Below are positions 3,267 through 32,869 of a stretch of DNA of 64,000 nt, one piece after another. Within the stretch, counting starts at the first letter, position 1; each line of letters begins with the position of its first letter. Source of the DNA: a virus; IMG/VR virus record IMGVR_UViG_3300027917_000042, positions 1 through 64,000 of that record; one strand, 5' to 3'. The notes beneath the pieces were generated by a model that was not told the origin of the DNA, did not search any database, and worked only from the letters and a program-made list of their open reading frames with translations. The position numbers were made by a program, and so were the translations under genes.

Positions 3267-3486
3267 ACTGAAGAAGATCATGAGGGCCAACCCGGATCTC
3301 ACCCGGGCGCAGGTCGCCCGCCTGACGCGCTGCAAGGACGTCAGCACGGTGGACCGCTGGCTCAGCCCCGCCACTCGTGGCGGCAAACCGAATCCCACGC
3401 ATCGCAACATGCCGGACGTCCGACTGTTCGCGCTGCGTGTGGCACTGGGCTCGATGAAGGTCATCGAGCAAAGCAACGACAAGTAG
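3247..3486 (+). CDS. Putative helix-turn-helix protein (79 aa)
   Basis: Start at ATG 3247 rather than 3211 because of the AAGGGGA site just upstream. The 79-residue product has a probable helix-turn-helix in residues 9-40 (DLTRAQVARLTRCKDVSTVD followed by RWLSP), of the kind found in small phage Cro-like DNA-binding proteins. The C-terminus is a helix of about 15 residues. It may regulate the early operon, but no cognate operator could be assigned. Confidence 0.65.
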   Translation: MPTNNTELKKIMRANPDLTRAQVARLTRCKDVSTVDRWLSPATRGGKPNPTHRNMPDVRLFALRVALGSMKVIEQSNDK

Positions 3487-10719: not shown

Positions 10720-10772
10720 TTCTTGCTCTCCTTGGATGGGTGTAATGGACACTCGCATGCTACCAGAAAGTG

Positions 10773-10834
10773 GTTGCCCTGATGGGGCCCCGGGTGTACG
10801 ATTTCAGTGACCCCGGGCGCAGTGTCCGGGCAAC
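10773..10834 (+). promoter_or_regulatory. Structured leader before the exonuclease gene
   Basis: Outer arms GTTGCCC (10773-10779) and GGGCAAC (10828-10834) are perfectly complementary and enclose two CCCGGG-containing segments that can pair with each other. The Shine-Dalgarno of the 10848 gene follows within three bases, so the fold could gate ribosome access. The 10720-10847 interval must also contain divergent promoters for the XRE gene and the exonuclease operon; I could not assign -10/-35 boxes with confidence. Confidence 0.5.
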
Positions 10835-10847
10835 ACAGGAGAATCGC

Positions 10848-15872: not shown

Positions 15873-16313
15873 TCAGCCTCCTCGCTTGCGTAATTCGACA
15901 TGTCCCCAATCCAGCAATTTCTGATCCTTTGTCGATCCATCCGTATCCCAGTCTCCGCCCCAGCGCAGGCTGACGCGCATTTCCGCAGCGGCGGCGGTCA
16001 TCAGCCCGGCTATGTGAGCGAAGATATGAGTATCGTTCCACGGGATCGTGCCGTTGACCCACGGGGCAAAATCGATCGCCAGCGAATTCGGCTCGCCGTT
16101 ATCTCTGGTGTAGTTGTGTTTCGAGTCCGGCCATCGTTTCGTTGAGGCCCCGGATTCCTGAAGTGCGTTTTGTACTTCTTCGCCCCGCCAGCCGTGAACG
16201 ATGGTGATGTCGTAAGGTGACAGCTCCAGCGCCCGCTCCGCGATGGCCCGCAACACCGGGTCACAAGTCTTCAGCTTGCTCATCGACTTGGATCCATAAC
16301 TGTAACCGTTCAC
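15873..16313 (-). CDS. Endolysin, M15-type L-Ala-D-Glu peptidase
   Basis: A 146-residue protein with GTG start (GGAGG six bases upstream). Zinc ligands are visible as 'SKHNYTRDNGEPNSLAIDFA' (His and Asp of the S-x-H...D pair) and 'LLDWGHVEL' (the W-G-H-x-E pair); 'GWRGEEVQNALQESG' is the typical N-terminal block. This is the VanY/T5-endolysin-like peptidase fold that cuts stem peptides in Gram-negative peptidoglycan. It has no signal peptide or membrane span, so it needs the holin. Its start overlaps the giant gene's end by four bases. Confidence 0.92.
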   Translation of the reverse strand: MNGYSYGSKSMSKLKTCDPVLRAIAERALELSPYDITIVHGWRGEEVQNALQESGASTKRWPDSKHNYTRDNGEPNSLAIDFAPWVNGTIPWNDTHIFAHIAGLMTAAAAEMRVSLRWGGDWDTDGSTKDQKLLDWGHVELRKRGG

Positions 16314-19300
16314 CGCAATCCTCCCTTACTGACGTCTGCATATAGCTCAGCGGTGGCCGGGTACTTCTTTTGCAGCCAGCCGATGACTTCCTCGTCGGAC
16401 AGTTTCTGCCGCTCTTCCCACATCTCCTCGGTCATGATCAGCGGCGGCAGCTCTTCGGGCCTGACGTCTTCGCCCGGTTCCTTGAACCCGGACCCCGGTC
16501 TGCCGACGTACCACTCCAAGGCTGCCTTCTCGATCTCGCGATACTTCTTCTCCAGCTCCATCAGCTTGGCTTCGGGGGTCATCACCTTGTTGCGCATGAC
16601 CTCGTCAATCTCTTTACGGATCTCGCGGATCTCCTTGCTGGAATCCTTGACGTCTCGGATGGCGTCATAAACCTGCTCGTTGGTCAGGCCCTTGAAGTAG
16701 CGGGCACGCCGGGCCATGTAACCTTTTTCCAGATGATCTGGCAGGCGCTCGCCTTCCTCGATGTCGCGCATGGTCTCCTCGACCTGCACCGCCGCCTTGC
16801 GGAAGTCGTACAACATGGACTCCCAAGCTGTCCGCCGGGGGAAGGTCGCGCCCTCTTCTACCTTCGGCAGGACAATGACGTTGCGCCCGTCTTCCATCTT
16901 CTCGTAGCTCACGGGTGGCTCGTAGCCACGCCAGAACCGCTTCATGATGGGCAGCTGATCCGCCCTGAGCTGCGGGGCCTTGGCGTACTTGTCCGACTGG
17001 GCCCGGATCGCGGTGTCGGTCGCCATCATGATGTAGCTGCCCAGCGTGCCGAAATAACCGCGCATGATGTGTTCCACCATCATGGGTGACTCGATGAAGT
17101 CCGGCAGCATCGGCCAGTCGTAGGGCATGGCTTCGGCAATCTCTCGCGCCGTGGGACTGGTCGTCTCCGTGTACTGGTAACGCGGATCCACCTTCTGCAG
17201 GTAGTACGGAACGATCGGGCCCTTGAAGAAGCTGTTGTAATTGCGAGCGGCCTCGACCAGCGGCGTGACCAGCTGAATCTGTCGCAGGTCGAAGTTGAAC
17301 ATCTCGCCAATGATCCAGCCAAGACGATCCATGGCGAGCTTGGTGGCGTCGTCGGCGTCCGACTCGATCCACTCCCACATCCGCTCCGGCACGGTCCCGT
17401 ACAGCGCCCCCACTTCGAACGGCTTCGGCTGACGGTAGTGCATGTCGCCGACCCAGAAATGCCAGTAGAGATCCTTGTCTTCCTGAGTGAGACGCTTGTA
17501 CCGCTCGTCGTCGCGGTTGTACCAGTACAGCGCCAGCGTCGCCATGGTGATGATCATCGATTTCAGCAACGTAACCCCGGCAGCTTTCACGCCTTCGCCC
17601 ATCTGCCGCTGACCGTAACGGTACAGGCCCTGCATTCTGGCATTCAGGAAAGGCACGGTCTGGATGAAGAACGCCACGATCGGCAGGTCGCCATGCTTGG
17701 CGAAGTTCATCAGATCCTTGGACTCGAATACCGCCTCCATCACAGAGCCGGTCTCGTCGAGTGCGGGCTTGTAGCCGTAGGCGATGCGGTTCGAGTTCTC
17801 CATGGCGGCAGCCACGTCGTTATAGGCATGCGCCAACCGGAACGGCGTGTTCAAAATCTTGCCTTTGACACCACTGCGGCGCACAGCTCGCTTGATCGAT
17901 TTGCTCATCGCCGCAGGATCCCCGGCATTGATGTAGCCGGAGTAGAACGCAGCGCCGGACGCCATCATCGTTTTCATCTGCTTGGATAGGGTCAGCGCCT
18001 CGCCGATCCCGGCCAAAGATCTATCAGGTCGCAGCATCTTGGCGTAGCGACTGTTGACGAAAGCCATCGGCCCGTCCCGCATCCAGTTCGCGCCCATGAA
18101 GGCCGGGTCCAGCGTGATCATGGTCGTCAGCAACCGCTTGGTGAAACGGAACGGAGCCATCGCCAGTGACCCGAAGAAGCTCTGGAAGTGCCGCTGGTTG
18201 ATTGCCGTCAGCGAGCGGAACAGTAGCTCATCGTGGACGTGGTAGAACTCTTTCTTGCCGTTGCGCAGGATCGTGATGACGTCCGGGTCTTTCGGCGTGC
18301 CCACCACCCACATCTTTTTCAGCGCCGAAAGCGCCGCCTGATCCATGTCGGCCACGTCGATGCCGACGTTGCTGAGCCGCCGTTTCAGGTCGCCCTCGGC
18401 GATCGTCTTCTCTTCGAGGAACTCGAAGCCTTTCACCTTGGTGACCATGCCGGACCCGTCGAGCGCGTCGATCGTCATGAGCGCCGCGTTGTTCCTCATC
18501 GTGGTCTGCATCAGCATGTTCAGGTTGATGAGGATGTTTTCCATCGGGTTGCCGAGCATGCTCTTGCCGCCGCGCAGCTTGCGGATCGGCGATCGCTGGT
18601 TCGCCAGTCCCTGCGTCAGCATCTGTCTGGCGACTGCTGATGTGCCCGTCAGGGTCGGCGGCACCGTGCCGGACTGCTCGCTGAAACCCGCGCCCAGCTG
18701 ATCATCCCTGAGGCGATAGAACGGAATGTAGTCGGCGTTCTCCCACAAGGGCCGGGTCTCTGGATTGATGACGCCAGCGGTCTGGGCCCAGTCCAGCATT
18801 TCCTTCATGAACTGTGCGTAGTCGTCGGCGACTTGCTCGAACACGGGGTTCTGCTCGCCCAGCCAGAGCCCGGCAGCGATCGCTTTCGGGCTCAACAGCT
18901 GTTCCCGACCTGCCCGTTGGATCTGATCCTGAATCTCCTGCGGCAGGCTGCCATCGAGAATGCCCTGCCATACCGCCTCGCGGATCCATTCCAGCTCAGA
19001 CGGCGGGGCCCGCATGTACTGTTCTGCGCCCACGTCGGCCAGTTTCCCGAAGGGTACCGACTGGGTCCGCTCCAGATGCTGCTTGATGTTAAACAACATC
19101 CCCTCTGAGCCTTCCTTGCCAATGCCTTCGAGGTACAGGCGCTTGGCCCGGCGGGCCACCATGAACTTGCCCCACTCATCGATGCGCTTGCCGACAGGTT
19201 CGAGGATTTTCAGCAGGCCATTGCTGCCTTCCTTTACCTGAGACACACCGTCACGCCATTCCAGCGTGCCCTCCATCAGGGTCACGTAGATCTGCGAGTC

Positions 19301-22300
19301 TGGTGACGTGGTCAGATGCGCATGCTTGTACGGGTCCAGCTCGGGCGGCAATCCCTGCTGTCCGTAGTAAGAACGGATGGCGTGGCGGATCCCGGCGAAC
19401 TGATCAAGCAAGGCTTGTTCAATGTGCGCCTTCTTGTTTTCGACGCCGAGAACTCGATACACGAAGCTCTGGAATCTCTCCAAAGGCCCGGGGCCTTCCC
19501 CGGCTACCTTCTGGTCCAGCTCCTTCAGGCCCTCTGCCTGCTCAGGCGGTGGCGCACGAGAGAACAATGGCAGGCCACGATCATTCAGCTCGGTTTCCAG
19601 CTTCGGCGGGATGTCGATCATCCACGCGCCGAATGCTTTGGCGGCAGATTCCAGCTCATCCATCACGATGGCTTCGAGCTGTTTTCTGACATCACGAGAG
19701 TCCATGTGATACAGACGCTTGTCTTCATCACTTACCCAGTCAGCCCGAGTGCCGTATGTCGTGATCGCTTTCGCTGGATCTGCCTGACTGTTCCACCCTG
19801 TCTTGTCGCCAGATGAAGTCACTCTCGTGACCTTTTTCTGCAACACGAAGATCGGCTCACGCTTGATGCGCTGCCGCTCTGCTGCAACTTCTTCCTTGGT
19901 CGCAATCAGGTAATAATCATTGACCTCAACTTCGCGGAACTCGCCTTGCTGACCGCTAAGCATCCGGTACTTGTCTCCCATGCTCTTCGGTCTTTTCCAG
20001 ATCTTTTCCCGAAACACTGCGTCGTCAGCCCATTGACGGCTCGCGCCCAATGCTCTGGTGTTGATCCGGTATTTACCAAAGTCCACATCCTCGGGGACCG
20101 TCACTTCTTCGCCGTAACTGTTGGCGATGTATTCGTCGATCTCCTCCTCGGTCATGCGGGTTTCTTTCACCCGGTACTTCTGTCTGATTTCCTTCTCGAC
20201 TGCTTCAATGGGCTTGTCGAAATAAGGGATCATCCCGGCTTCCATATTTGGCTTGCCTTTGATCGCGCCCCATTCGACTTTGGTGCCAAACTTTTTCAGC
20301 AGCTTGTTGGTAAAGACGTTCGGCTGAATCTTGTTGTAAACCGAGCGGCTGCCGGTCATGAATCTTGGCGAGTATCCGCCTGCCGCCATTTGCCTGTGGC
20401 CCGTCAAGTCCACAGCATCGACGCCCACAAAGTTGACGTCACTGCCGCTTGCAGAACGAGCCTCTTCCTCGTCGGCAATGACCTGCTTGGCGACGGCGTT
20501 ACCGAGGAACTGCGGCAGATCTTCCCGGGTTACGACATACCGGGTCTTGGCCTCGCCCTTGTCATAAGTTTGCAGCCGGTATAGACGGTCAACATTCTCG
20601 TTAGCCCACTCGTACAGGTTGCCCGAGTAACCAGCATCTCTTGCTTTCTGAAATTTCCTCGCGATGGACGTGTCTTTGAACTCTGATTCTGGCGGGATCT
20701 CATTGGAAGGTGTGTTCTGGAACAGCGCATTGGGCCCGGCAAACCCTTCGACGTTAGACGAGCTGACCACCTCGACATAATCGTAGAGCTGCCCGGCGTT
20801 CCAGCGGAACCCATGCACTTCGCCATTGGCGATGGCGACTTTCTTGATGCCTCGTCGATTCGCCTCGGCAAGCGCCCATTTCAATGCGAGCAGGTGATAA
20901 GTTTTTTCGAAAGGCGCTGGATCCATGCCCGTCTCAGCACGGTGAATCTTGTCCTCCCGCTCTGTAAACTCCAGAGCCATCTGGCCTATCGAAGAATCTC
21001 TGAAATCACTGAGATCATTAACCAGATCGCTGAGCTTGTAATCGCCACCTCGTTCTTTATACGACTGCGGCAGCCACTCCTGCGCCGGGACAAGAGTTGT
21101 CTCATCGAACAGCGGACCCTGACCATTGCGGCTGATCTTGTTTAGATACCCGGCCAGTGCCTCGGCATACGCCCCGGTCACCATTCGATTCTGCTGATCA
21201 AACTCCGGGTGAGTGACGTCGTAGGTCAGATCCAGATCTCGCAGCGAACGAAACAGCTGCTTGATCAATGTGCTTTTGATTTCAGCGACTTTGTCAGGCG
21301 CGAAGATTTCCTTGATATCGTCTGGCGTAATGACCGCATCGACCCAGCCAGCCGAGCCGGTGGCCCGCCAGTCGGGAGCCGGAGAACCGTCATACCATTG
21401 ATAGGTGTGCGTGCCGTCATCGCTGACTTTTGCTTTCGGATAGGCGATGACAGTTTTTCCGTCATATTCCCTGAAATACGCAAACTTGCCTGTCAGTGCG
21501 TTTGCAATGATCGCTCCGTACTGAGCCTCGTTCTCGTTTTTGTGAGGCGTGTTATTTTGGGCAAGACGTTCCAGCATGGCCCGATTGGCAAACGTGCCAA
21601 GAGCTTCAAGCATCTGATCGGTGACCCTGCCAAGCGGTGCGGCGTGCTTCGAATCCAGCGTGCTGAGATTCTGGAACTGGTTGCGCGGATGTTTGCCAAC
21701 GACCTGATCCAGCCATTTTTGGCGGAAGTGAAATGCAGGGCCGCCGGGATTCTCCATCAGCTGTTCGGCAGATGGATTATCGTTCCACTGTTTGTGAGTT
21801 TCTCCGTAGACGATGAAGTCCATGAGGTCTACGAAGCTCATCGTCTCCAGAGCATCCTCGATCAGCGTCTCGCCTTTCGGGCGCACACTGCGGTTGTACT
21901 CGTTCAGATGCAGCTGGTGAATTTCTTCTTTCAGTCGCCGTGCTGTCTCCGGGCTCTTCACCCCGGCATCACGCAACTCCTGATGCCAGTCAGACTGGAT
22001 CTCATCGATGAACAGGATCTTCTCGCCATCAGGCGTATAGCGAATGTCATGCCGCAAGTGAACAATGATGTTGGGGATGTCATCCCAGTGAGCATCCGCA
22101 GTAAAGAGAGTCTCGTTGATGTCCCATTGAATCAACGTCTCTTCGTAATCTTCGCCGCCTTCGAGGTTGTAAGAAGGCCCGGTCCACTTGGTGGCTGGGA
22201 GCTGCTCCTGCTCATCTACCCACTCGCGAATGCTTTCGGTCACGTCCTCGGCAGCCATGGCGGTGCCCCAGTCCGTGCCATCAATGGTCAGGTCGTACTC

Positions 22301-25300
22301 ATCTTCTGCGACGTTGCCTTCGACATTGAACTGGTGGTTCTCGTAGATCCAGTACCATTTGGCGACCAGCCCACTGTTGTACTCTTTCTCCCAGTCTTCT
22401 TTATTGCTTGACGTGAGAATATCTGAAGCGATGTACTCGCCGTCAATCTCGGTTTCGTTGTTGCTGGCATACTCGCGCAGCTCGTTCTCGTAGTCAGCAT
22501 CATCTTCTTCAACAGCATCCCGCTCTTGGCTGTACCAATGCTCCGCGATGCCTCGCCATCCAGCGTCCTCCAGCTTCTTGTCGAGCGCATCACTGGTGCC
22601 GAATGCTGATGTACCGAACTGCTCTTTCATTTCCTCCTCGGCCTTGGCGTCGAGGAAGCTGTTGTAATCGTCGTAGTCCGGGTGGCTTTCTTCGTCCGGG
22701 CTTGTTGAAGTAAAGCTATCCGCTTCCGCCCAGTCGAGATCCGACTTGGGATTTGTGACCGTGACCTTGACGCCCACTTCCCCAACCCAGTTCAGCATCA
22801 CCTGAACCGGGATCCTTTTAGCTGGACGTTCTCCGTATCTGACGATCATGGACCGGAGGTCGTTATATTCCTCCTCCATGTCCCGAATGCGTTTCACCAT
22901 TCGCCTGACCGCCCGATAGGTGGCGTCGGTGTCGCTCAATCCTTGCGTGTAATCCTGCCAGCTGTACCGCTGGTCATAATTTTCGAGTCCGGCCCGGCTG
23001 ATCTCAGCGGTGCCGTTGACAAGCGCATTGACGATCGTCTTCCGATGGTACATATCGGTGCGACTGGGCCAGAGCGTACTGGCAATCTTTTCTTCGAGCT
23101 GGCCGCGTTCGACATCAAGCTCATCCTTGCGACTGTACGCCGCCTCGACATCCTTGTCGGGGTACAGATGGAACACCTCGTCGATCTTGTCATCGCGCCT
23201 GCCGCTCCAGTGCCGGTAAATGTCGTTGATGGTCGGGCTTTCAAGCAGCGTGTCGATGTCGGTCCAGTCAAGCTCATCTTGTTTGATCAAGCCTTTCTTG
23301 ACTGCCGACGCGATCTCCTGCTGCCACTGCTCCTTGGTCCGGCCACCCGATTTGATCTCGGGCAAAGAGCCGAGCCAGCGATGCAGGGCGCTGTAGAAAT
23401 GCGGCGAGTACATCGAGAAGCGGTGGTTGCGGTGCAGCTTGACCACCTGATGCTTGTAGCCGCCGGGCCGGTGAACGAAGTTCCAGCCTTCCGAAATGAT
23501 GCCCCGGATCTGCCGCTTGGTGATGCCGTGGCCCTTGCCCATAGCGCGGTCCAGCCAGACCCGGAACATCTCCACCAGATCCTCGATGATCTGCTTCATC
23601 TTCTCGGGAATGGATTTGCTGCGCAGGGCCTGCCCCGTGTAGTAGGCGATCACTTCTTCAGACGCGATGCGGCGCTGCGTCAAATCAGCGACGTTCAGCC
23701 CATTGCGTTTGGCGGCATCCTTGACCAGATCGGGAAACGTATTCCAGATCCGATCCATGACCCGTTCCCACTGCGCCGTGGACAAGACACCCTGTGTCCC
23801 GTAGTGGCCGACCACCTCGTGCAACAGGGTCTCGATCGCATCCTCGTTGGTGTTGATGTTGGCCCCGATCAGGTAGACCGTGTCGAACATCCCGTGGATG
23901 TCGTACATGCCCTGCGTCCGGGTCAGCGCCTGCGACTGTGGATCCTGTGCCTGCTCCTCTTTCAGCTTCAGGTAGATGTCGTGCGGCAGATCTTCAACGG
24001 TCTCCACCACGATCACCCGGGGCGCTGAGTTCATGCGCCGGTAAACCTGCCTGACAGCGTTCTGGACTGCCTGCTTGCCGAGCCCCTTACCTTCGTTGGT
24101 CTTCTTCTTGCTGTAGCGCGTCGCCTTTCTGGGACGGCGCTCGTAGAGGAACGGAGCCTCGGCCCTGAGCCGGAATCCGTTGCGCTTGTACCAGTTCACC
24201 AGCTGACCACGGGTCAGACCTTCCTCGCCGAACGGCACCGGGTTCAGCTGCAGGGTGACGCCGTGCTTGTCAGCCAGCTCGTTGATGCGACGCAGCGCCA
24301 TGCCGCCGTCGCCCTTGTTGATCTCGAAGGCCCGGATGGACTCGATGCTGATGGTATTCTTGTCAGCCGGGCGCAGCTGGGCAGCCGCCTTCCATTCAAC
24401 GATCCGCTCAGGCGCACCGAACGGATTGGCCTCGGTGCCTTCCATCCATTCCTTGATCATCGCCTCGACGTTTTTGCCATAGTCCGGCGTCGAGATCTTG
24501 ACCTTGCGGCTGAACCGCTTGGGCTCTTTCAGGGTCAGGGTGCCGTCCTCGCTGACGCTGATGCGCATGTCGTCGAGCGACTGGCCGGTAGTCGGGGCCT
24601 GATGCTCGGCCCTGCGTTGGTCCATCAGCCTGCGCAGCTCGCTGTCTGGCACGCGCTGCCACGTATTGAGGTTGATACCTTCGGTCGGTTCGCGCCCGGC
24701 CTTCTCAGCGAGCGCCTGCTCGGTCTCCTGAAGGCTCTTCAGAACGTCCTTGATCGCCACCCTGCGAGCGGCATTCGGCATGAACCCATATTCCCCGGGG
24801 TCACCGAACTCGCCCGTCAGGCTGCGGTACATCGCGTCTGACAGGTTGGTGTTGTACTCTTGGGTGAACTGCTCTTCGCTGATCGTGATGCCGACCTGTT
24901 CCAGCAGCATGCGCTGAAGGCGGAACGCAAGGTCTTCCCACTCCAAGGCCCGCTGCGCTTCTTTCAGCGTCATTGGGCGCTGCTCGACCAGCTTCTGGTT
25001 CGGTGGCTTGCCACGCGGCAGCATGGCGATCCGGCCCAGCCTGCCATAACGGTAGCTGTCGCCGTACTTCTCCTGCATCAGCTGTTCAGTGATGCCGTGA
25101 GCAATCTCGTGGGAGACCCGCCATGCGCGGGTGTACTCGGTATCCTTGAAGGATCCGCGCTCGACCTCTGGGTCGTAGATCCAGACGGTGCCCTGCTCGT
25201 ACCCTTGCTTCTTCAGCTTGGGCAAGCGGAACCGATCCGGGTCGTAACTGAAAACTTCCAGCTCGTACCCGTAATCGGCGAGTAGCTTCTCGGTGGTGCC

Positions 25301-28300
25301 CTGCGGATTGTCGATCGCAGGGGCGAGGTTGTAGATCTTCAGCCGGTTGGTGGTCGGTTCCTTTCGCAAGGAACCGAACCGACCGTAGATCTCTACTTGG
25401 GCTCGTCCTCCGTGGTCGAGTCGATCCACGGGTACTGGTGCGGCAGCCGACCTTGGTGAGGTCTTTGCGCGACCGGCCCAGCGTTTGGTGACCTGCTCGG
25501 CCCGCCCACGCCAATCGTCAAGCCGCGATTCAAGGCCCGGGCGTCGGGCTTGTATTTCATCACGTAGTCGAGATCCTTTTTCGTCAGCTTCCCAGTCATG
25601 TACGGTTCTCCTGTATCCAGATGACTCCACCGTCATTGGTGAAGAATCGTCTTTGATTATACCGAAAGGTGTTGAAATTTCCGAGATCCATGAGCGAACC
25701 CCGTCCAGCCACTTCGCGTTGTTTGCGGCCTTCTTTCTCGATGTGGACGGAGCCTCTCCGGTTTCCGGGTCAACGCCGTCCAGATTGATCAGGGTAATTT
25801 CGTCCGGCTCTGTGACCGTGAACCCCTGTCCCGGGAAGTACTGTTCGAGCATCGCTGCCAGCAAGCCGATGTCCTCGCTGGTCAGGGCCTTATCGAATCT
25901 GACGGCGAATGCTTGATCGTAGCCCTCCTTGTTTGGGGATGGCGGCTCTTTCGCCTCGCTCTTCACCGGGCGGAACCAGATCACCGAATCCTGCCGGTAG
26001 ATGTATTGCAGCGCCTTGGCGATGATGTCCGCCGTGTTCCTGTCGTAGCCCTCTGCCGCCTTTAACAGCGGCGCTTCCATCAAGGCTCCGGGCGCGGTGG
26101 TGCCAAGATAGCCGCCACGCATCTGCTCGGTGACGTACAGCGGCAGACCCAGTGCATCGAGCAACTCGTTGCGCCCGTCATCCGCGCCAAGGACGTTGAG
26201 CATTTCCTCGGTGAACTGGGTGCGCTCCGCGTCTGTCAGGCGAGCCAGCACCCGGCCCTCGTTGAAGCTCTCAGAAGGAATGGTCTCGAATGCCGCGTTG
26301 GCCGAGGATCCGCGAATCAGCTCAGCAAACGATCCCCGGCGACCGCCACGAGCCAGCACCCAGAGCGCCGCCTGAAACTGGCGCGGCCTGTAGTCGGTGT
26401 TGTACTGCTGGTTGTAATCCGCTGTCGCATCGACGATAACCTTGCGGGCGAATTCGTATTGGTTCGGCGTCAGTTTTTCTTCGTTCGTGAACCCGAACTC
26501 GCGAGCCATCCACAGATCAATCGTCACCGCATCCGGGTAGCGGTCCTGCTCGAATGTCGCATCCCACAGGTTGCGGTAGAAGTTGAGCAGTTTTGGACCA
26601 ACCCCCCGGGTGTTGATGGTCAGCTCGTCTGCTTCGAGGGCCTTGATCAAGTCCTCGTTGCCCATCAGGGCACCGGGGATCTTGGTCAGGTCACTGAGAC
26701 GACCTTCTTTGTAAGCGTTGTAGATCCCGGTGATCCACTTCGTGACATTGGTTTCAACGGAGGTGTTCGGCGACATGAGCGCCAGCAGGCGCACCATCTT
26801 CTCCATGTCCTGCATGTCGCCCTTGACGAGCTTGCGGATCACGGCTCCGGCGTCTTCGTACCACGTCCACGCATCGGGCGGGATCAGCGCCCGGCCACCA
26901 CCATCCTTGCCCTCGCCACGGCGGACCCGGTTGCGCAGCTTGGTGACGAAGCGACCCACCGCCCGGACGTCTTTGATGCCGGGCGGTGAGCCAACCGGCT
27001 TTTCGCCCCGGGTTGGATACCGCTCCTGATACCACTCGCCAGAAGGTGCCCGGCGGCGTCTCCTCACCCGGGAGAGGGAAGGGGTGGTGATGGAGGGGTG
27101 CCGCCGGGCATTACTGACCCAGCGATCCACGCTGGGTTTCTGGTCAAGCGCAGGTTTTGGAATCGATATCGGCCCCTCAGGAAGGTCGATGGTATCGAGG
27201 TTCTGTGGATCGTCAGGATCCACCATCATCTCGCGCAAACGCTTCAGCCGACTTGTGGCAAGGTCGAACTTCTGTTCGCCAAGCGCCACCGCTACGTCCC
27301 GGGCGGTCTTCTGAGCCTCATTGTATGCGGGCAGCTTGCGGTGTTCGTCGGCGTATTCCTTCAACGCCCGATCCACCAGCTCGCGGTAATCCTCGAAGGT
27401 CGGAGCTTTGCCCGTTTTTTCCTCGAACTTCTTCCACCACTTCGGCGCGAACCGGGGTTCTTCCTGCCAGAGCCGGAAGTTGTTCTGCAGATTCTCCTCG
27501 AACTCCCGCTTGAATCCATACGGATTGGTGAGGTAGCTGATGCCTCGCTGGACCTTGGGCCACACAAACTCCAGCCCCTGATCCCGGCTCTCGTTGGCGG
27601 TGCGCTCAGACATGCGGTGCGTCAGGTCGCCGAGATGCTCGACCATCACCTGCATCACGCCACCCCCGGTCAGGGACTGGGCCCGCAGCATCGCCATCTC
27701 CGGCTTGCCGCGCTGCGCGTCAGCCAGCGCCTCGAAATCCTGCTTGGCGTCACGAGTAAACCCGTACTCGTCCCGACCATCGTCGCCAGACCCTCGCACG
27801 TAACGCAGGATGCTGGGATCAAGCGCGATCGCCTCGCCGCTGTCACTAATGATCGCGTCGTAACCTTCCCGCCGGATGAACTCGAATTCCTCAGGGCGCA
27901 GCTGATCGAATGCATCTCGCGGCAGCTGCAGGGGATTTTCCGGGTTGATAGTGACCGACAGCATGCCTTCCCGGCGTTTCTTCTCCAGCCGGGGCATGCC
28001 GCCCGCTTCCATGTCGGCGTAGAAGACCTTGCCTTGGATCTGCTTGGCGAGGTCAGTTTCTGTCGGGGCCTGCCCGATCAGGCTCTCGACATCGCCCATG
28101 GAGCGAACTTTCTGGCGCAGCTCCGCGTCGGTCAGGCGAGTGATGTCCGGCGTGCGTGACTGTCGGATCCGCTGATCGAGCGCCTGCGCCCGGGTCTGGC
28201 CTTCGCCCACCAGCTGCCGCCTGCCCTCGGGTGTCAGGGTCATGCGACCCTCGGCGGCATTCAGCACCCGGCCAAGACCGGAACGCTGCAGGTTGAACAT

Positions 28301-29995
28301 CTCCTCGTCGGTCAGGGGATCGCCATTGGCGACGCGCTGCAGGGTGTCGTTGCTGACATCCCTGACTTCCATGCCTGCTTGGGCAGCCTCTTCGGCGCTG
28401 ACCTCGTCGGCCCGTTCAATGTAATCATCTCGTGGAGGTGGCTCAGAGCCACTCTCCTGCGCTCTGATGCGATCCGCAAGGTAACCGAGCCCACCACCAG
28501 CCGCACCCAGTCCAGCGCCTCCCAGAGCGGCTGGGAAGCCGCCCTCCGTGAGAATCTTGGCTGCCTCGACGTAGTCCCCGTTTTCCAGCGCGGTATTGAG
28601 CTTGTCGCGGGTCTCTTCGTCGTACACCAGACCCGCCACGTTCTGCATTGTTTCCTGCAGGAACTCGGTCGCGCCTTCGCCGGTCATCGCCAGCGCCAGT
28701 CGTCCGACAAGGCTCTTGCCCCCGGGCAGCTTGCCGAGGATGGCATCGAGGCCGGTCTTCTCCAACGCCGCGTTGACCGCTCCGGTCACCGAGGTCGCGA
28801 TCACATACTGGTCATCCGAGATCTCGGAGCCTGTCATCTCTTCGAACTCGTTGATGTTCCCGGCCTGATCCATGGCCTCCATCCAGCCCATGAAAGACAT
28901 TGGCGAGCCGGTCTGGCTGGCGAGGTAGGCCGCGTACAAGGTCGGAATGCCCTGACCGATGGCCGCGCCGAGAACATCCGGGTTCTTCGCCGCCTCCCAC
29001 AAGAGCGCGACATCACCCTCTTCGAGGAACCGCTCCCATGCTTTCTGTCCCTCTTCGATACCCGCCGCTTTCTCTTTGAACATCGGCACGGTGTCGTTGA
29101 GGATCTGCATCGAGCGACCGATCTCGTCGGCCACGTCGCTGGTGCCCGCCGCGTGGAACTTGCCGAAGTCGTGGCCTTTGGCAATCTTGTCGAGGATCAG
29201 GGTCGGAGCCCCGAACGGGTTCAGCCAGTCCGGCACGCCCCGCTCCTGCAGCGCACGGTATGCGCCACGGGTATATCTGGAGGCCGACTCCGGCGTGCGG
29301 TAGATCATCTCGCTCATGCCGAGCGTGCCTTCGATGCCGCCCGCAGCCCCGGTCTCGGCAAATTGCCCGAGCCAACTGCCCTCGTCTTGCGGCTCGGCTG
29401 GCATGTATTTCTTCCATGGCCCCTGATCGCCTGACTGAGTCAGGTTCTGGGGCATGCTGGGAGAAATTTTGGTAGCGTCTATTTCCTCCGGCGTCCATGG
29501 ACGGCCCGTGTCTGGATTGATTTCCTGCTGCTCTGGCTGCTGGGTCTGGTATTTCGACCATGGGCCCTCGTCCTGTGGGGCCTCCATGCGAGCCATCACT
29601 TTCTGGACATAGGGCTCGGTCTCCTGCCGCTTCGGCAGCGAAGCATAATCTCGCCCGGACGCCAGCCACCTGTCCGCGTTGCGTGGCCCGGCGTTGTACG
29701 CGATCAGCGCCGCTTCGGTATCGCCGCCGTACTTGCGGTACATGGCCGACAAGTATTCCTCGCCCTTCTGCTGCAGCGCCATCGGATCTTCCCATTTCTC
29801 CTCAGGCAATGGCTCAACGCCGTACCCCGGATCCCGCAAGGTCTCCGGCATAGTCTGCATCGTGCCAATCGCACCGACTGGAGAAACCGCGCTGGGATCA
29901 GCGCCGCTCTCGGCGTAGCGCACCGCTTCAAACAGGCGGGGGTCTGGATCCTGAGGCCGCTGGTACTTCGACCAAGGCCCGGCGGGCGTCGTCAT
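16310..29995 (-). CDS. Giant polyvalent virion protein with lytic transglycosylase domain (4561 aa)
   Basis: The largest gene, over a fifth of the window, in one uninterrupted frame. Residues 20-120 form an SLT lytic transglycosylase: Glu29-Ser30, 'GAIGTMQTMP' (41-50) and 'AYNAG' (99-103). Three GPW(S/K)KY linkers follow (6-11, 144-149, 192-197), then an Ala/Gly-rich, partly hydrophobic region (about 205-560). About 1040-1240 is a helical block also seen in polyvalent proteins. 'SHEIAHG' places a zincin HExxH at His1629-His1633. A GNAT-like stretch lies at about 1835-1955, and a second metal-type motif 'HEVVGHYG' at 2059-2066. 'DEIQSDWHQ' (2664-2672) and 'DPAPFEKTYH' (about 3025) mark a further conserved block. 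From about 3490 comes the large polyvalent C-terminal region with a probable membrane span near 4139-4158. It is probably an ejected virion protein that cuts peptidoglycan and carries enzymes into the host. Domain calls are from motifs. Confidence 0.9.
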   Translation of the reverse strand: MTTPAGPWSKYQRPQDPDPRLFEAVRYAESGADPSAVSPVGAIGTMQTMPETLRDPGYGVEPLPEEKWEDPMALQQKGEEYLSAMYRKYGGDTEAALIAYNAGPRNADRWLASGRDYASLPKRQETEPYVQKVMARMEAPQDEGPWSKYQTQQPEQQEINPDTGRPWTPEEIDATKISPSMPQNLTQSGDQGPWKKYMPAEPQDEGSWLGQFAETGAAGGIEGTLGMSEMIYRTPESASRYTRGAYRALQERGVPDWLNPFGAPTLILDKIAKGHDFGKFHAAGTSDVADEIGRSMQILNDTVPMFKEKAAGIEEGQKAWERFLEEGDVALLWEAAKNPDVLGAAIGQGIPTLYAAYLASQTGSPMSFMGWMEAMDQAGNINEFEEMTGSEISDDQYVIATSVTGAVNAALEKTGLDAILGKLPGGKSLVGRLALAMTGEGATEFLQETMQNVAGLVYDEETRDKLNTALENGDYVEAAKILTEGGFPAALGGAGLGAAGGGLGYLADRIRAQESGSEPPPRDDYIERADEVSAEEAAQAGMEVRDVSNDTLQRVANGDPLTDEEMFNLQRSGLGRVLNAAEGRMTLTPEGRRQLVGEGQTRAQALDQRIRQSRTPDITRLTDAELRQKVRSMGDVESLIGQAPTETDLAKQIQGKVFYADMEAGGMPRLEKKRREGMLSVTINPENPLQLPRDAFDQLRPEEFEFIRREGYDAIISDSGEAIALDPSILRYVRGSGDDGRDEYGFTRDAKQDFEALADAQRGKPEMAMLRAQSLTGGGVMQVMVEHLGDLTHRMSERTANESRDQGLEFVWPKVQRGISYLTNPYGFKREFEENLQNNFRLWQEEPRFAPKWWKKFEEKTGKAPTFEDYRELVDRALKEYADEHRKLPAYNEAQKTARDVAVALGEQKFDLATSRLKRLREMMVDPDDPQNLDTIDLPEGPISIPKPALDQKPSVDRWVSNARRHPSITTPSLSRVRRRRRAPSGEWYQERYPTRGEKPVGSPPGIKDVRAVGRFVTKLRNRVRRGEGKDGGGRALIPPDAWTWYEDAGAVIRKLVKGDMQDMEKMVRLLALMSPNTSVETNVTKWITGIYNAYKEGRLSDLTKIPGALMGNEDLIKALEADELTINTRGVGPKLLNFYRNLWDATFEQDRYPDAVTIDLWMAREFGFTNEEKLTPNQYEFARKVIVDATADYNQQYNTDYRPRQFQAALWVLARGGRRGSFAELIRGSSANAAFETIPSESFNEGRVLARLTDAERTQFTEEMLNVLGADDGRNELLDALGLPLYVTEQMRGGYLGTTAPGALMEAPLLKAAEGYDRNTADIIAKALQYIYRQDSVIWFRPVKSEAKEPPSPNKEGYDQAFAVRFDKALTSEDIGLLAAMLEQYFPGQGFTVTEPDEITLINLDGVDPETGEAPSTSRKKAANNAKWLDGVRSWISEISTPFGIIKDDSSPMTVESSGYRRTVHDWEADEKGSRLRDEIQARRPGLESRLDDWRGRAEQVTKRWAGRAKTSPRSAAAPVPVDRLDHGGRAQVEIYGRFGSLRKEPTTNRLKIYNLAPAIDNPQGTTEKLLADYGYELEVFSYDPDRFRLPKLKKQGYEQGTVWIYDPEVERGSFKDTEYTRAWRVSHEIAHGITEQLMQEKYGDSYRYGRLGRIAMLPRGKPPNQKLVEQRPMTLKEAQRALEWEDLAFRLQRMLLEQVGITISEEQFTQEYNTNLSDAMYRSLTGEFGDPGEYGFMPNAARRVAIKDVLKSLQETEQALAEKAGREPTEGINLNTWQRVPDSELRRLMDQRRAEHQAPTTGQSLDDMRISVSEDGTLTLKEPKRFSRKVKISTPDYGKNVEAMIKEWMEGTEANPFGAPERIVEWKAAAQLRPADKNTISIESIRAFEINKGDGGMALRRINELADKHGVTLQLNPVPFGEEGLTRGQLVNWYKRNGFRLRAEAPFLYERRPRKATRYSKKKTNEGKGLGKQAVQNAVRQVYRRMNSAPRVIVVETVEDLPHDIYLKLKEEQAQDPQSQALTRTQGMYDIHGMFDTVYLIGANINTNEDAIETLLHEVVGHYGTQGVLSTAQWERVMDRIWNTFPDLVKDAAKRNGLNVADLTQRRIASEEVIAYYTGQALRSKSIPEKMKQIIEDLVEMFRVWLDRAMGKGHGITKRQIRGIISEGWNFVHRPGGYKHQVVKLHRNHRFSMYSPHFYSALHRWLGSLPEIKSGGRTKEQWQQEIASAVKKGLIKQDELDWTDIDTLLESPTINDIYRHWSGRRDDKIDEVFHLYPDKDVEAAYSRKDELDVERGQLEEKIASTLWPSRTDMYHRKTIVNALVNGTAEISRAGLENYDQRYSWQDYTQGLSDTDATYRAVRRMVKRIRDMEEEYNDLRSMIVRYGERPAKRIPVQVMLNWVGEVGVKVTVTNPKSDLDWAEADSFTSTSPDEESHPDYDDYNSFLDAKAEEEMKEQFGTSAFGTSDALDKKLEDAGWRGIAEHWYSQERDAVEEDDADYENELREYASNNETEIDGEYIASDILTSSNKEDWEKEYNSGLVAKWYWIYENHQFNVEGNVAEDEYDLTIDGTDWGTAMAAEDVTESIREWVDEQEQLPATKWTGPSYNLEGGEDYEETLIQWDINETLFTADAHWDDIPNIIVHLRHDIRYTPDGEKILFIDEIQSDWHQELRDAGVKSPETARRLKEEIHQLHLNEYNRSVRPKGETLIEDALETMSFVDLMDFIVYGETHKQWNDNPSAEQLMENPGGPAFHFRQKWLDQVVGKHPRNQFQNLSTLDSKHAAPLGRVTDQMLEALGTFANRAMLERLAQNNTPHKNENEAQYGAIIANALTGKFAYFREYDGKTVIAYPKAKVSDDGTHTYQWYDGSPAPDWRATGSAGWVDAVITPDDIKEIFAPDKVAEIKSTLIKQLFRSLRDLDLTYDVTHPEFDQQNRMVTGAYAEALAGYLNKISRNGQGPLFDETTLVPAQEWLPQSYKERGGDYKLSDLVNDLSDFRDSSIGQMALEFTEREDKIHRAETGMDPAPFEKTYHLLALKWALAEANRRGIKKVAIANGEVHGFRWNAGQLYDYVEVVSSSNVEGFAGPNALFQNTPSNEIPPESEFKDTSIARKFQKARDAGYSGNLYEWANENVDRLYRLQTYDKGEAKTRYVVTREDLPQFLGNAVAKQVIADEEEARSASGSDVNFVGVDAVDLTGHRQMAAGGYSPRFMTGSRSVYNKIQPNVFTNKLLKKFGTKVEWGAIKGKPNMEAGMIPYFDKPIEAVEKEIRQKYRVKETRMTEEEIDEYIANSYGEEVTVPEDVDFGKYRINTRALGASRQWADDAVFREKIWKRPKSMGDKYRMLSGQQGEFREVEVNDYYLIATKEEVAAERQRIKREPIFVLQKKVTRVTSSGDKTGWNSQADPAKAITTYGTRADWVSDEDKRLYHMDSRDVRKQLEAIVMDELESAAKAFGAWMIDIPPKLETELNDRGLPLFSRAPPPEQAEGLKELDQKVAGEGPGPLERFQSFVYRVLGVENKKAHIEQALLDQFAGIRHAIRSYYGQQGLPPELDPYKHAHLTTSPDSQIYVTLMEGTLEWRDGVSQVKEGSNGLLKILEPVGKRIDEWGKFMVARRAKRLYLEGIGKEGSEGMLFNIKQHLERTQSVPFGKLADVGAEQYMRAPPSELEWIREAVWQGILDGSLPQEIQDQIQRAGREQLLSPKAIAAGLWLGEQNPVFEQVADDYAQFMKEMLDWAQTAGVINPETRPLWENADYIPFYRLRDDQLGAGFSEQSGTVPPTLTGTSAVARQMLTQGLANQRSPIRKLRGGKSMLGNPMENILINLNMLMQTTMRNNAALMTIDALDGSGMVTKVKGFEFLEEKTIAEGDLKRRLSNVGIDVADMDQAALSALKKMWVVGTPKDPDVITILRNGKKEFYHVHDELLFRSLTAINQRHFQSFFGSLAMAPFRFTKRLLTTMITLDPAFMGANWMRDGPMAFVNSRYAKMLRPDRSLAGIGEALTLSKQMKTMMASGAAFYSGYINAGDPAAMSKSIKRAVRRSGVKGKILNTPFRLAHAYNDVAAAMENSNRIAYGYKPALDETGSVMEAVFESKDLMNFAKHGDLPIVAFFIQTVPFLNARMQGLYRYGQRQMGEGVKAAGVTLLKSMIITMATLALYWYNRDDERYKRLTQEDKDLYWHFWVGDMHYRQPKPFEVGALYGTVPERMWEWIESDADDATKLAMDRLGWIIGEMFNFDLRQIQLVTPLVEAARNYNSFFKGPIVPYYLQKVDPRYQYTETTSPTAREIAEAMPYDWPMLPDFIESPMMVEHIMRGYFGTLGSYIMMATDTAIRAQSDKYAKAPQLRADQLPIMKRFWRGYEPPVSYEKMEDGRNVIVLPKVEEGATFPRRTAWESMLYDFRKAAVQVEETMRDIEEGERLPDHLEKGYMARRARYFKGLTNEQVYDAIRDVKDSSKEIREIRKEIDEVMRNKVMTPEAKLMELEKKYREIEKAALEWYVGRPGSGFKEPGEDVRPEELPPLIMTEEMWEERQKLSDEEVIGWLQKKYPATAELYADVSKGGLR

Positions 29996-31336
29996 TTATT
30001 GTCTCTGCCAGTTTCTGGGATCGGAGGGATCGCCCCCCTTGAACACGTAACCGTCCTCGACTGTCCCAACGGGCGGCGCTCCGGCTTGCGGAGCAATCCC
30101 TTGCGTGCCCGGCGGCATGCCTTGCGGTGGTCCGCCCTGCTGCTGCGGGTTCAGACCGCCCTGCTGCTGTCCCGCCCCTTGACCACCGTACATGGCCCCG
30201 GCCATTTCACGAAGGATCCTGTCGAACTCCATGCGGCCCTGCTCCGTGGCTTGCCAGTCTTCGACTTTTCGGCCACGCACTTTGAGCTTCGGATCCTTCG
30301 CATAGATCACCTGCAACTGAGCGTACTGGTCTTCCACAGACCGGGCATTGCTTGCCGCGATCATACCCGCGATCCTCGGCTCCACACCGGACTCGATCAG
30401 CACCTGATATTTTTGCTGGAAGACGCTGTCCTTTGCGTGCCCGCCCGGCGTCAAACCCGGCTGAATCGGCTGGCCCGTCTCCGGGTCCAGAGACTGATCC
30501 CACTGGCCGGTCTCGGCATTCCACGTCCGCAGTCCGCTCGCCGAATCGTAGGTGGCCGGTGGCTTCGCTGCCCGGTCCAGTGCGCCCTCGCGCTGACGAA
30601 CCCGCTCGGACAGGATGTCGAGAGCCCGCTGCCTGCGATTCTCGGTCATTTCTCTTGCCGTCGCTTCGCGGCCCTGTTTCAGGCCCTGCATCTCCTGCAC
30701 CGTGGGCACACCTGCCGCGCCGAAAGCTCCCCCGGCACTCATGGTCTCAGACGCAGCCATCATCCTGAGCCCAAAGCTCATGATGAACAGGCCCTTCTCT
30801 TCCTTGGTCAACTCGGTCTCGGGCTTTTCAACCCCGCCAAGCTGATCGAACAACTCGTTGTACGCCTCCACCAGATCCACGCCGGTCCCTTCCAGCGCAT
30901 CGGCCATCTGCTTGGCTTTCTCCGGCGCGGCCTTGGCTCCCTGCTTGGCGCGATCTATTTCCTGCTTCACCATCTCGGGCCCGGACTGCTGAGCGGCGGC
31001 AGGAGAGGGCGTCGCAGGGGGCTGCTGAGCCCCAGCCAGCGCAGGGGCAGCTGCTGGTTGGTTGCCCGGCAAACCACCCTGCGACGCCGCAGGCTGATTG
31101 TTGCTAGGCAAGGCCCCTGCGGACGTCGCCGGTTGTGCGATTGGGGCCGCGCCGGAAACGGCATCAAACCCCGCGTTCGTCTGTTCTTTGTCTCCGCCGC
31201 CGAACAGGTTGGCGAACATCCCCGGAAGATCAAACTTCGGTTTGCCGCCGTATATCTCTGACGCTGGCGGTGCCTGCGCCGGTCTGATTCTGCCGTCCGG
31301 CAACTGCTGAAACTTGTAAGGCTCGAATGCTGGCAT
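29996..31336 (-). CDS. Pro/Ala/Gln-rich ejection-type virion protein (446 aa)
   Basis: A 446-residue protein. The N-terminal 120 residues are low-complexity (Ala/Pro/Gln), then helical segments (KQGAKAAPEKAKQMADALEG, SERVRQREGALDRAAK), and a C-terminal Gln/Gly/Pro tail that ends 'VFKGGDPSDPRNWQ'. That end block is common in internal or ejected proteins of podoviruses. It stops exactly one codon before the giant gene's ATG (TAA-ATG), so the two are translated together and probably work together during DNA ejection. Confidence 0.75.
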   Translation of the reverse strand: MPAFEPYKFQQLPDGRIRPAQAPPASEIYGGKPKFDLPGMFANLFGGGDKEQTNAGFDAVSGAAPIAQPATSAGALPSNNQPAASQGGLPGNQPAAAPALAGAQQPPATPSPAAAQQSGPEMVKQEIDRAKQGAKAAPEKAKQMADALEGTGVDLVEAYNELFDQLGGVEKPETELTKEEKGLFIMSFGLRMMAASETMSAGGAFGAAGVPTVQEMQGLKQGREATAREMTENRRQRALDILSERVRQREGALDRAAKPPATYDSASGLRTWNAETGQWDQSLDPETGQPIQPGLTPGGHAKDSVFQQKYQVLIESGVEPRIAGMIAASNARSVEDQYAQLQVIYAKDPKLKVRGRKVEDWQATEQGRMEFDRILREMAGAMYGGQGAGQQQGGLNPQQQGGPPQGMPPGTQGIAPQAGAPPVGTVEDGYVFKGGDPSDPRNWQRQ

Positions 31337-31350
31337 GATTACGTTCCCCC

Positions 31351-32427
31351 TCAGTAGCCGCTCGGCCCGAAACTACTGGTGTCGCCAAAGTAAGGGCTCT
31401 GCTCTGGCGGCGTGCCCGGCATGCCAGCCCAGCCGGTGTTGGCTGCTGACTGCATCATCCATGGGCTTGGCGTATAGGTGTTGCCACCGTAAGAATTAGG
31501 CGATGCCGCTGGCATGCCAAAACCCGGCGCAGGCTGGGAACCGCCGCCGAAGAAGCTCTTCGCCACACCCATGGCCCCGGTGAACAAGCCGCCGGTCGAT
31601 GCCCCGTAGATGGTTGCCGCGAGGCCCACCGCCTGACCGAGGGCGCTGGGCTTGTTCTTGGTCTCTGAAGTCTCGGTGACGGTGTAGGATCCCTTGATCC
31701 CATCCAGCGTAGTCAGGAGCGCATCGAGCCCGCGCATGTCCCAGTCCCGGCCCTCGACAAATTGCTGATAGTCGAAGTCCTTCCGCATCTGCTCCACGCC
31801 GCGCTGGGTCGCACCCGTGGTCATCAGGTTCTGGATGTCCTGCGTGTTCATGTTCATCGTGTTCTGAGCCAGCGTCAGGTAATCCCCAGCTGCCTGTCTG
31901 GACCGGTCCATGTCCTGTGCCCAGCGATCAGCGCCCGCCTCGAACGCTTGGAAGTATCCCTGCCCGTAGAGATCCTTGACGTTCTGGCCGGTCGATTTCC
32001 TGAGCGCCTCGTACCCGGCGGCGGTCCTGCCACCACCGAATGCGCCCTGCGAAGACTGCATGCCCTGCAGACGGTTCTGCTCCATCAGCGCCTGCTCGCG
32101 GATGTTTCGTGCTGCAGGATTGAGCGCCCCTTCGAGGTAGGGGTTCATATACGCCTGAATGTCAGCGTCGGTGAATCGCTCGGTCGTTCTGCCCAGCAGG
32201 CCCCGGGCCGTATCCACGTCCCCGGCCCACTGGCCTGCCGCCGTCCGGGCCAGACCGATGCCCTGCTGCTCGTTCTGGGTCAGCCCGGCAACCCGTTCCC
32301 CGGTGTACGGGGTGTACTGCTGGTTAGCAATACGCTGACCAATCCCGACCGCCTGCCGAGAAGTTCCCTCGACCCAGTCAGGAACTTCCCTACTACTCTT
32401 CGTCTTCGTCTTGCTGGACCCGCCCAT
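31351..32427 (-). CDS. Internal/ejection virion protein (358 aa)
   Basis: A 358-residue protein with 'YTPYTGERVAGLTQNEQQGI' early on, a long helical centre with 'GMQSSQGAFGGGRTAAGYEA', and a Gly/Pro/Ser-rich tail. This layout matches ejection proteins of P22-like and related podophages (functionally like T7 gp14). A hydrophobic Gly-rich segment (LGQAVGLAATIYGASTGGLF) could insert in membranes. Neighbours on both sides are virion proteins. Confidence 0.75.
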   Translation of the reverse strand: MGGSSKTKTKSSREVPDWVEGTSRQAVGIGQRIANQQYTPYTGERVAGLTQNEQQGIGLARTAAGQWAGDVDTARGLLGRTTERFTDADIQAYMNPYLEGALNPAARNIREQALMEQNRLQGMQSSQGAFGGGRTAAGYEALRKSTGQNVKDLYGQGYFQAFEAGADRWAQDMDRSRQAAGDYLTLAQNTMNMNTQDIQNLMTTGATQRGVEQMRKDFDYQQFVEGRDWDMRGLDALLTTLDGIKGSYTVTETSETKNKPSALGQAVGLAATIYGASTGGLFTGAMGVAKSFFGGGSQPAPGFGMPAASPNSYGGNTYTPSPWMMQSAANTGWAGMPGTPPEQSPYFGDTSSFGPSGY

Positions 32428-32869
32428 GCTCGCTCCTCAGGAATGTGCCGCCGAGATATTGGTATCCCTTCATCTTCAGCAGCCGATCTTTGATGTCGAT
32501 GTTTTCGCCCCCGGCATTGATGCCGAGCAGTATAGGTGCATTCTTGTCATCCGCGAAGGCATGCGCAGCCCTCATTAATGCGTCGAAAGCACCCAATTCC
32601 CTGTACTTCTTTTGTACGTAGAGCCATTCGAGATAGAGAAACCACTTTGGACTCCACGGAAACTGGTAACTCGTCAGCGCCATGGAGCCAACGATGCGCC
32701 CAGAAAGATCAACGCACATCACGTAGCCTTCCGCGAGGGTACGTGCTATCCAGTTGATCGCTCGTGCTTCATCAGCTTCCGGGTAAGCGCCTCCTTCTGA
32801 ATGACAACTCAGCAACAGCCTCAGGATGTTGCTGGCGTCGAGGGGCTTAGCCTGTCTGATCTTGATCAC
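32393..32869 (-). CDS. GNAT-family N-acetyltransferase (158 aa)
   Basis: GTG start with TAGGAGGAG upstream. The 158-residue protein follows the GNAT fold: N-terminal 'IRQAKPLDASNILRLLLS', central strands 'IVGSMALTSYQF', and the acetyl-CoA-loop helix 'LYVQKKYRELGAFDALMRAA'. The usual R/Q-x-x-G-x-G/A loop is represented by K-K-Y-R-E-L-G. The last strand gives 'MKGYQYLGGTFLR'. It may modify a virion or host protein, or be structural only. It overlaps the next gene by 35 bases. Similar GNAT genes sit in late operons of other podophages. Confidence 0.8.
   Translation of the reverse strand: MIKIRQAKPLDASNILRLLLSCHSEGGAYPEADEARAINWIARTLAEGYVMCVDLSGRIVGSMALTSYQFPWSPKWFLYLEWLYVQKKYRELGAFDALMRAAHAFADDKNAPILLGINAGGENIDIKDRLLKMKGYQYLGGTFLRSEHGRVQQDEDEE

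Follow-up and report, generated by a model that had tools for sequence, protein, structure and literature searches.

What kind of protein is encoded by a single phage reading frame of 4561 residues, and how might the phage use it? The frame lies on the minus strand of a 64,000-nt stretch of DNA, referred to here as the window, which comes from a virus record of 71,711 bp (IMGVR_UViG_3300027917_000042). Its product, P0001, had been described in a sequence-only reading as a polyvalent virion protein encoded without interruption in more than one fifth of the window; the frame is indeed continuous and fills 21% of it (Table 1). That reading mentioned neither the strand nor the DUF7178 domain (residues 1044-1218), the total absence of cysteine, or the constancy of the C-terminal module.

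Table 1. Features of P0001 and of its neighbours, with coordinates in the window
Feature	Coordinates	Strand	Evidence or remark
Endolysin, directly downstream of P0001	15873..16313	-	PHROG 465, 6.6e-37
P0001, giant ORF, 4561 aa, without cysteine	16310..29995	-	intact homologue L001 10001-23635, 75% identical
Constant C-terminal module, about 1,000 aa, residues 3486-4496	16508..19540	-	contains LPD38 (4163-4350)
Junction motif LFSR (3477-3480)	19556..19567	-	between EIQSDWHQ domain and C-terminal module
EIQSDWHQ-type domain, residues 2196-3476, about 1,280 aa	19568..23410	-	alignments A6-A8 with relatives
Junction motif RFSM (2192-2195)	23411..23422	-	between MPTase2 and EIQSDWHQ domain
MPTase2, zincin-like, HEXXXH (HEVVGH 2059-2064)	23426..24106	-
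Junction motif RYSK (1960-1963)	24107..24118	-	precedes MPTase2
GNAT-like domain, residues 1831-1958	24122..24505	-	degenerate acyl-CoA loop KGDGGMA
Junction motif RFSR (1827-1830)	24506..24517	-	precedes GNAT-like domain
MPTase1 region, HEIAH at residues 1629-1633	24518..25378	-	motif invariant in both genomes
DUF7178, residues 1044-1218, predicted divergent HhH-GPD (DNA glycosylase/AP lyase)	26342..26866	-	Pfam 1.8e-9
Residues 740-940	27176..27778	-	common to Salicola phage SCTP-2 gp47: 34% identity, E 8e-20
Gly/Ala-rich region, residues 210-530	28406..29368	-	EGxTExxQE helix motif (440)
GPW[SK]KY repeats x3, residues 6, 144, 192	29405..29980	-	around SLT
SLT lytic transglycosylase domain, residues 8-135	29591..29974	-	Pfam PF01464, 7.2e-19
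446-aa ORF, Cys-free, putative second ejection protein	29996..31336	-	immediately upstream of P0001
358-aa DNA ejection protein, Cys-free	31351..32427	-	PHROG 4287, 6.7e-17

Is the frame real? An assembly artefact joining several genes might be suspected, given that homologous domains occupy separate ORFs in another contig (L003). This is excluded by an independent contig of 72,059 bp, IMGVR_UViG_3300009506_000018, which encodes a homologue of 4544 aa that is intact and syntenic, with the same architecture, no internal stops and 75% identity over the full length; the order of ORFs around it resembles that around P0001. Because such a homologue exists, the frame is far beyond chance, and with relatives of similar size also known the probability of an artefact is negligible. 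Residues 1000-2300 of the two proteins are about 77-95% identical, residues 3500-4400 74-95% (69% in one block) and residues 2400-3500 43-69%; the last of these stretches evolves fast because the EIQSDWHQ domain of P0001 is inflated by long lineage-specific inserts. A DNA-level search of phage records gave no match.

The size and the combination of domains had both been called exceptional. The longest proteins that share the C-terminal module measure, at full length, 4683, 4561 (P0001), 4544, 4504, 4464, and 4441 aa; since several relatives are equally large, the claim about size has to be given up. Nor is the combination supported as exceptional, as the class to which it belongs was already described in 2017 (PMC5512222).

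In the order of minus-strand transcription, genes for the terminase large subunit, the portal, the major capsid protein and several structural proteins are followed by a GNAT gene, a DNA ejection protein (PHROG 4287), the 446-aa ORF, P0001 and the endolysin. P0001 is the third ORF of the ejection cassette and precedes the endolysin; by analogy with known podoviruses, this would be an ejection cassette of the podovirus type that closes with lysis. A family search with the 446-aa ORF gave no match. Being encoded alongside portal and terminase virion genes is a criterion for polyvalent proteins (Iyer et al. 2017), and the position of P0001 agrees with it. The stand-alone GNAT acetyltransferase gene (32393-32869) sits within the structural and ejection cluster, and genes for a RecE-like exonuclease and a RecT-like annealing protein are found on the opposite (plus) strand at 10770-12618.

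Could P0001 instead belong to the tail, as a tape measure or another structural protein that bears an SLT domain? Its SLT part does match PHROG families named "lytic tail protein". However, the structural genes searched include no match to a tail tube, tail sheath or tape measure, the middle of P0001 consists of enzyme-like domains rather than coiled coil, and PTXU04, a phage with a related protein, is a podovirus by transmission electron microscopy (PMC6563267). A tail protein is therefore very improbable. The best reading of P0001, with a probability of about 75%, is that a podovirus-like phage uses it as its large ejection protein and that it is built as a polyvalent protein. The earlier proposal, that P0001 is polyvalent and enters along with the DNA, agrees, at the level of sequence, with the position in the ejection cassette, the SLT domain, LPD38, the HEXXXH motif and the absence of cysteine.

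The constant C-terminal module and the exclusion of cysteine

The large polyvalent region that had been noticed at the C-terminus contains LPD38, a catalogued polyvalent domain (Pfam E 3e-40, above the cut-off). LPD38 is part of a longer module that is present in at least 569 IMG/VR stretches. The module was located at the extreme C-terminus in all 84 ORFs scanned, which range in length from 794 to more than 4000 aa and some of which are cut at the 5' end. The cargo upstream of it varies: there is none in ORFs of 794-802 aa, and up to thousands of residues elsewhere. Thus, the module is preceded by a methylase and ddrB-ParB in phiARM81mr, by a helicase-methylase-GNAT combination in Vibrio 1.232.O, and by Zeta-toxin-like, helicase and LPD37 domains in L052. 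A profile search of the PDB with the module alignment gave nothing meaningful.

Three named relatives, PTXU04 gp25, Vibrio 1.232.O gp28 and phiARM81mr p69, have the module at the C-terminus with about 30% identity to P0001. Like P0001, they are poor in cysteine or free of it and are encoded at the end of the structural cluster. They differ in their cargo, which is other and smaller than that of P0001, and none of the three has an SLT domain according to Pfam. The module is one part that can be tested as an ejection carrier across a widespread phage group.

In the same phage, 25 other ORFs contain 75 cysteines in 11,660 residues (0.64%), and at this rate 29 would be expected in P0001, which has none in 4561 residues (P about 2e-13). 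Both ejection ORFs next to it, of 446 and 358 aa, are also without cysteine. Among 44 non-redundant proteins with the C-terminal module there are 8 cysteines in 133,623 residues (0.006%), and 37 of the 44 have none at all. The known ejected proteins gp50, gp51 and gp52 of N4 and gp15 and gp16 of T7 have no cysteine; the small T7 proteins gp14 and gp6.7 have one each, and other N4 and T7 proteins mostly have several.

The rule is not universal. The Dar proteins of P1, a contractile-tailed phage, are packaged in the virion and injected, yet they contain cysteine (nine in DarB, two in DdrB), so its absence is not obligatory for all injected proteins. Cysteine is also present in polyvalent proteins from a cyanobacterial phage. 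ORFs with the EIQSDWHQ domain but without the C-terminal module are nearly free of it (22 in 77,248 residues), and the exclusion is therefore not specific to the C-module family. In N4-like virion RNA polymerases (vRNAPs), the absence of cysteine has been remarked upon and ascribed to passage through the tail and periplasm (PMC3715699, PMC3915230). Its absence from P0001, its neighbours and its relatives supports a passage through the periplasm of the kind proposed for the N4 vRNAP.

These remarks on N4-like vRNAPs were the only ones found; for polyvalent proteins, no statement on the absence of cysteine turned up in the freely accessible literature, and near-total exclusion is not mentioned by Iyer et al. 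2017 (PMC5512222). The near-total ban on cysteine across the C-module family, together with a probable DNA-repair-like domain inside P0001, looks new. The absence of cysteine offers a sequence-only test of which polyvalent proteins pass from a short-tailed virion through the periplasm, and which giant phage proteins are ejected could be checked with it genome by genome.

Enzyme-like domains upstream of the module

Which activities might be carried by the rest of the chain? The SLT domain, already recognised in the sequence-only reading, matches Pfam PF01464 over residues 8-115 (E 7e-19) and has the canonical ESG...GxxQ.MP motif with Glu29 as the putative catalytic residue. It matches SLT70 (phmmer 5e-5), and residues 20-135 are common to 21 loci. 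Repeats of the type GPW[SETK]KYQ flank the domain, with an extra copy, GPWSQH, in the L001 homologue; a GPW[SK]KY-type motif also occurs at residues 3 and 20 of SLT-type ORFs of 824-906 aa from other phages (L007-L022). It is possible that these repeats are a packaging or ejection tag.

The Gly/Ala-rich region that follows is weakly N4-like and is found in L042 too, and the EGxTExxQE motif recurs in giant ORFs of L096, L049 and L003. Residues 343-622 weakly match the N-terminal part of the profile of PHROG 2206, the N4 virion RNA polymerase family (E 2e-4). Residues 600-735 (27791-28198 in the window) form a stretch ending GYDAIISDSGEAIALDPSILRYVRG, which looks like the end of a polyvalent ART domain; a Pfam search with these residues gave no match. 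One contig, L003 (9272-22543), has distant relatives of the two parts SLT and MPTase2 in separate ORFs, so that modularity is seen between genes too and not just within a single one.

Two metal-protease motifs had been seen in the frame, and both are invariant across the two genomes. For the first region, MPTase1, there is no relative among the fetched loci and no Pfam match. Across the fetched loci, 70 ORFs have segments homologous to MPTase2, and the HEXXXH-type motif is retained in 28 of 30 diverse copies. HEXXXH is one of the peptidase types named for polyvalent proteins by Iyer et al. 2017 (PMC5512222). By its motifs, P0001 contains the zincin peptidases (HEXXH/HEXXXH) of that class, and peptidase activity is predicted.

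A GNAT-like region, which lies between the peptidases, had been proposed as well, and this stands in part. The segment matches residues 2101-2155 of the Vibrio 1.232.O protein (E 1.2e-18 after iteration), which score as Acetyltransf_7 weakly, below the cut-off, but residues 1831-1958 of P0001 have no Pfam match of their own. In a profile test against the GNAT gene of the window, the segment did not score above shuffled controls.

The Pfam match to DUF7178, like those to SLT and LPD38, lies above the cut-off. A DUF7178 family was assembled from 20 viral loci, where it occurs mainly as solo proteins of about 190-240 aa. Lys in GxGPK and Asp in AVT[IV]DxW do not vary across its alignment (Lys1135 and Asp1160 in P0001). 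The family was compared by hhalign with an HhH-GPD profile of ten sequences (EndoIII, MutY, AlkA, Mig and relatives). With two of the five choices of master the probability was 45-51% at E of about 2e-4, and with the three others it was about 15-22% (lowest 14.7%); E ranged from 1.6e-4 to 1.8e-3 across masters, and scores were 27-33, against a maximum of 17.8 in 30 column-shuffled controls. The alignment places K1135 on K120 of EndoIII, the Lys of the HhH motif, and D1160 on the catalytic Asp, D138. The ten-sequence profile was needed for this, as hhalign against single E. coli sequences remained at noise level.

An AF2 fold of residues 985-1500 (mean pLDDT 56.6) is usable in the DUF7178 part only, which is all-helical with pLDDT mostly 60-87. 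Foldseek comparison of this part with the PDB found nothing significant, the AGOG glycosylases appearing at E 0.56 and 0.92, and a literature search on DUF7178 found nothing. On this moderate evidence from sequence comparison, DUF7178 likely has an HhH-GPD-like fold, with putative glycosylase activity; an injected enzyme of the DNA glycosylase type would come as a surprise. In mycobacteriophages (L113, and L110, which is Mycobacterium phage Kimona gp88), solo DUF7178 genes lie some genes away from a DNA methylase, a neighbourhood from which a link to DNA modification is possible.

The EIQSDWHQ block that had been noticed lies at residues 2665-2672, and alignment with relatives shows residues 2380-3480 to be a single domain with the motifs NYRE, HWDxPNVLAHxR, EIQSDWHQ, APFxxTW, LALKR, GGEGMKxFYD, DITPxMR and G[QL]PLF. 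The domain is widespread, in at least 580 IMG/VR stretches. A compact copy from L052 folds at pLDDT 83 and pTM 0.76. This model had no PDB match at E<=0.001; its best-ranked PDB matches are mostly GNAT-fold enzymes (E 0.04-0.3), so that a GNAT-like nature may be taken as a lead only. Its significant matches in BFVD are other proteins of uncultured phages, several annotated with polyvalent domains, and a profile search of the PDB with the domain alignment gave nothing meaningful. In EIQSDWHQ ORFs (L132-L211), LFS[RK] or LFQx usually forms the border to other domains that follow, whereas proteins ending with the domain mostly finish in LF[AST] and a hydrophobic tail.

Are these domains an effector payload, or is P0001 a purely mechanical ejectosome protein whose middle mostly forms a channel or fills space? 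Cys-free ejection proteins can be mechanical, as T7 gp15 and gp16 are, which counts for the latter. The only relative that has been tested, PTXU04 gp25, is essential by CRISPRi-ART, with a large drop in EOP, and belongs to a group of genes that are toxic or interfere with infection when expressed, so that complementation was impossible (PMC11879866). Its essentiality also counts for the mechanical reading and points to a core ejection role first. A point against the ejection reading as a whole is that, of the four PTXU04 bands on SDS-PAGE that mass fingerprinting could assign, none was gp25 (PMC6563267). Against a purely mechanical protein, the C-terminal module is kept as the middle varies from nothing to helicase, methylase, ParB, Zeta-toxin-like and peptidase domains, and variation at the catalytic residues of SLT, HEXXH, HEXXXH and DUF7178 is absent or very rare. 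A purely mechanical protein is unlikely.

Junction motifs and possible self-cleavage

Tetrapeptides resembling [RLK][FY]S[RK] mark four borders in the C-terminal half of P0001 (Table 1). They are not recombination sites, a reading ruled out by codons that differ between the copies; the differing Ser and Arg codons point to selection on the protein and not on a DNA site. Do they mark sites of cleavage? P0001 could be a self-processing polyprotein, cut at [RL][FY]S[RK] junctions by MPTase2 and/or MPTase1, in the head or after entry, which would free separate enzymes from a C-terminal carrier.

Apart from the protein-level nature of the motif and its presence at four borders, several observations speak for this. 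In relatives, [FY]S[RK] starts at most 35 aa before the C-terminal module in 16 of 44 non-redundant ORFs (1.2 expected), at most 20 aa before MPTase2 in 9 of 30 (0.5 expected), and inside the final 60 aa matched to MPTase2 in 11 of 30 (1.4 expected); at control positions inside domains the count is 0. These statistics are descriptive, because the motif was picked after the sequences had been seen. The retention of the MPTase2 HEXXXH in 28/30 copies also counts in favour. P1 DdrB, which has KRFSYN 116 aa before its HELGHH, is reported to be processed and to bear an MPTase (PMC5512222).

However, at any given junction most relatives have no [FY]S[RK], and the G[QLF]PLF that precedes the last junction is also kept in proteins that end at the EIQSDWHQ domain. 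A cut at KRFSYN in DdrB would yield a fragment of 83 kDa, as against the reported 76 kDa, and the N4 vRNAP is packaged uncut (PMC5512222). With a post hoc motif, and GxPLF conserved where no domain follows, self-cleavage is only a hypothesis, and a rather doubtful one. More doubtful still is its fullest form, in which an injected Cys-free polyprotein is cut at [RL][FY]S[RK] by its HEXXXH peptidase, freeing separate enzymes, a DNA glycosylase/AP lyase among them, inside the new host, with the C-terminal module staying as the ejection carrier. A common junction motif would nevertheless turn the long-suggested self-processing by these peptidases into a testable prediction of cleavage sites.

A model for P0001 and its place among known systems

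How would a large ejection protein of this kind work? P0001 would be synthesised late and, together with the proteins of 446 and 358 aa, packaged into the head. Around the time of DNA ejection, it may be threaded, at least partly unfolded, via the short tail and a channel formed transiently across the periplasm; in that oxidising compartment, its lack of cysteine could avoid trapping by disulphides. The N-terminal SLT domain would open the peptidoglycan, and the constant C-terminal module may be the conserved virion or ejection part that permits varied cargo. The enzymes of the middle (a probable HhH-GPD-like glycosylase, two zincin peptidases, and the GNAT-like and EIQSDWHQ domains) would enter the cytoplasm and there, during the first minutes of infection, act on macromolecules of the host or the phage; MPTase2 may process the P0001 chain itself. 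By analogy with the polyvalent class, a counter-defence function may be supposed. The antirestriction domains recognised in relatives (helicase-methylase, ddrB-ParB) are absent from P0001 according to Pfam.

Several known systems resemble this arrangement. Like the gp50 virion RNA polymerase of N4 (3500 aa), P0001 is giant, Cys-free and encoded beside two Cys-free ejection proteins, with a weak similarity near the N-terminus. An identity as an N4-type vRNAP was rejected, as no RNA polymerase family was found in Pfam or NCBIfam and the PHROG 2206 match is confined to residues 343-622. T7 gp16, of the gp14-gp15-gp16 ejectosome, is likewise large and Cys-free, with an N-terminal SLT domain and a gene near the end of the virion operon; P0001 is three times longer and has added enzyme domains. 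Outside the SLT domain, no homology to T7 core proteins was found in PHROG, Pfam or PDB sequences, and P0001 has no similarity to T7 gp16 or N4 gp50 beyond the SLT domain and the weak N-terminal match.

DarB and DdrB of P1 are large proteins that are packaged in the virion and injected, DdrB having a peptidase motif. They contain cysteine, in contrast to P0001, and DarB is a helicase-methylase. A DarB-type antirestriction protein was rejected as an identity for P0001, which has no Pfam match to an SF2 helicase or adenine methylase; its relatives have them.

A close parallel is in the polyvalent proteins of Iyer et al. 2017 (PMC5512222), where many unrelated enzyme domains are likewise joined in one chain; in P0001 these are SLT, DUF7178, two zincin motifs, EIQSDWHQ and LPD38. 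Shared features are LPD38, zincin-like peptidases including HEXXXH, a lysozyme-like domain and a location among virion genes. The cargo of P0001, with its DUF7178/HhH-GPD-like domain, MPTase1 and inflated EIQSDWHQ domain, is unlike the helicase-methylase type. The polyvalent class is known; the architecture of P0001 and several of the generalisations drawn from it are new.
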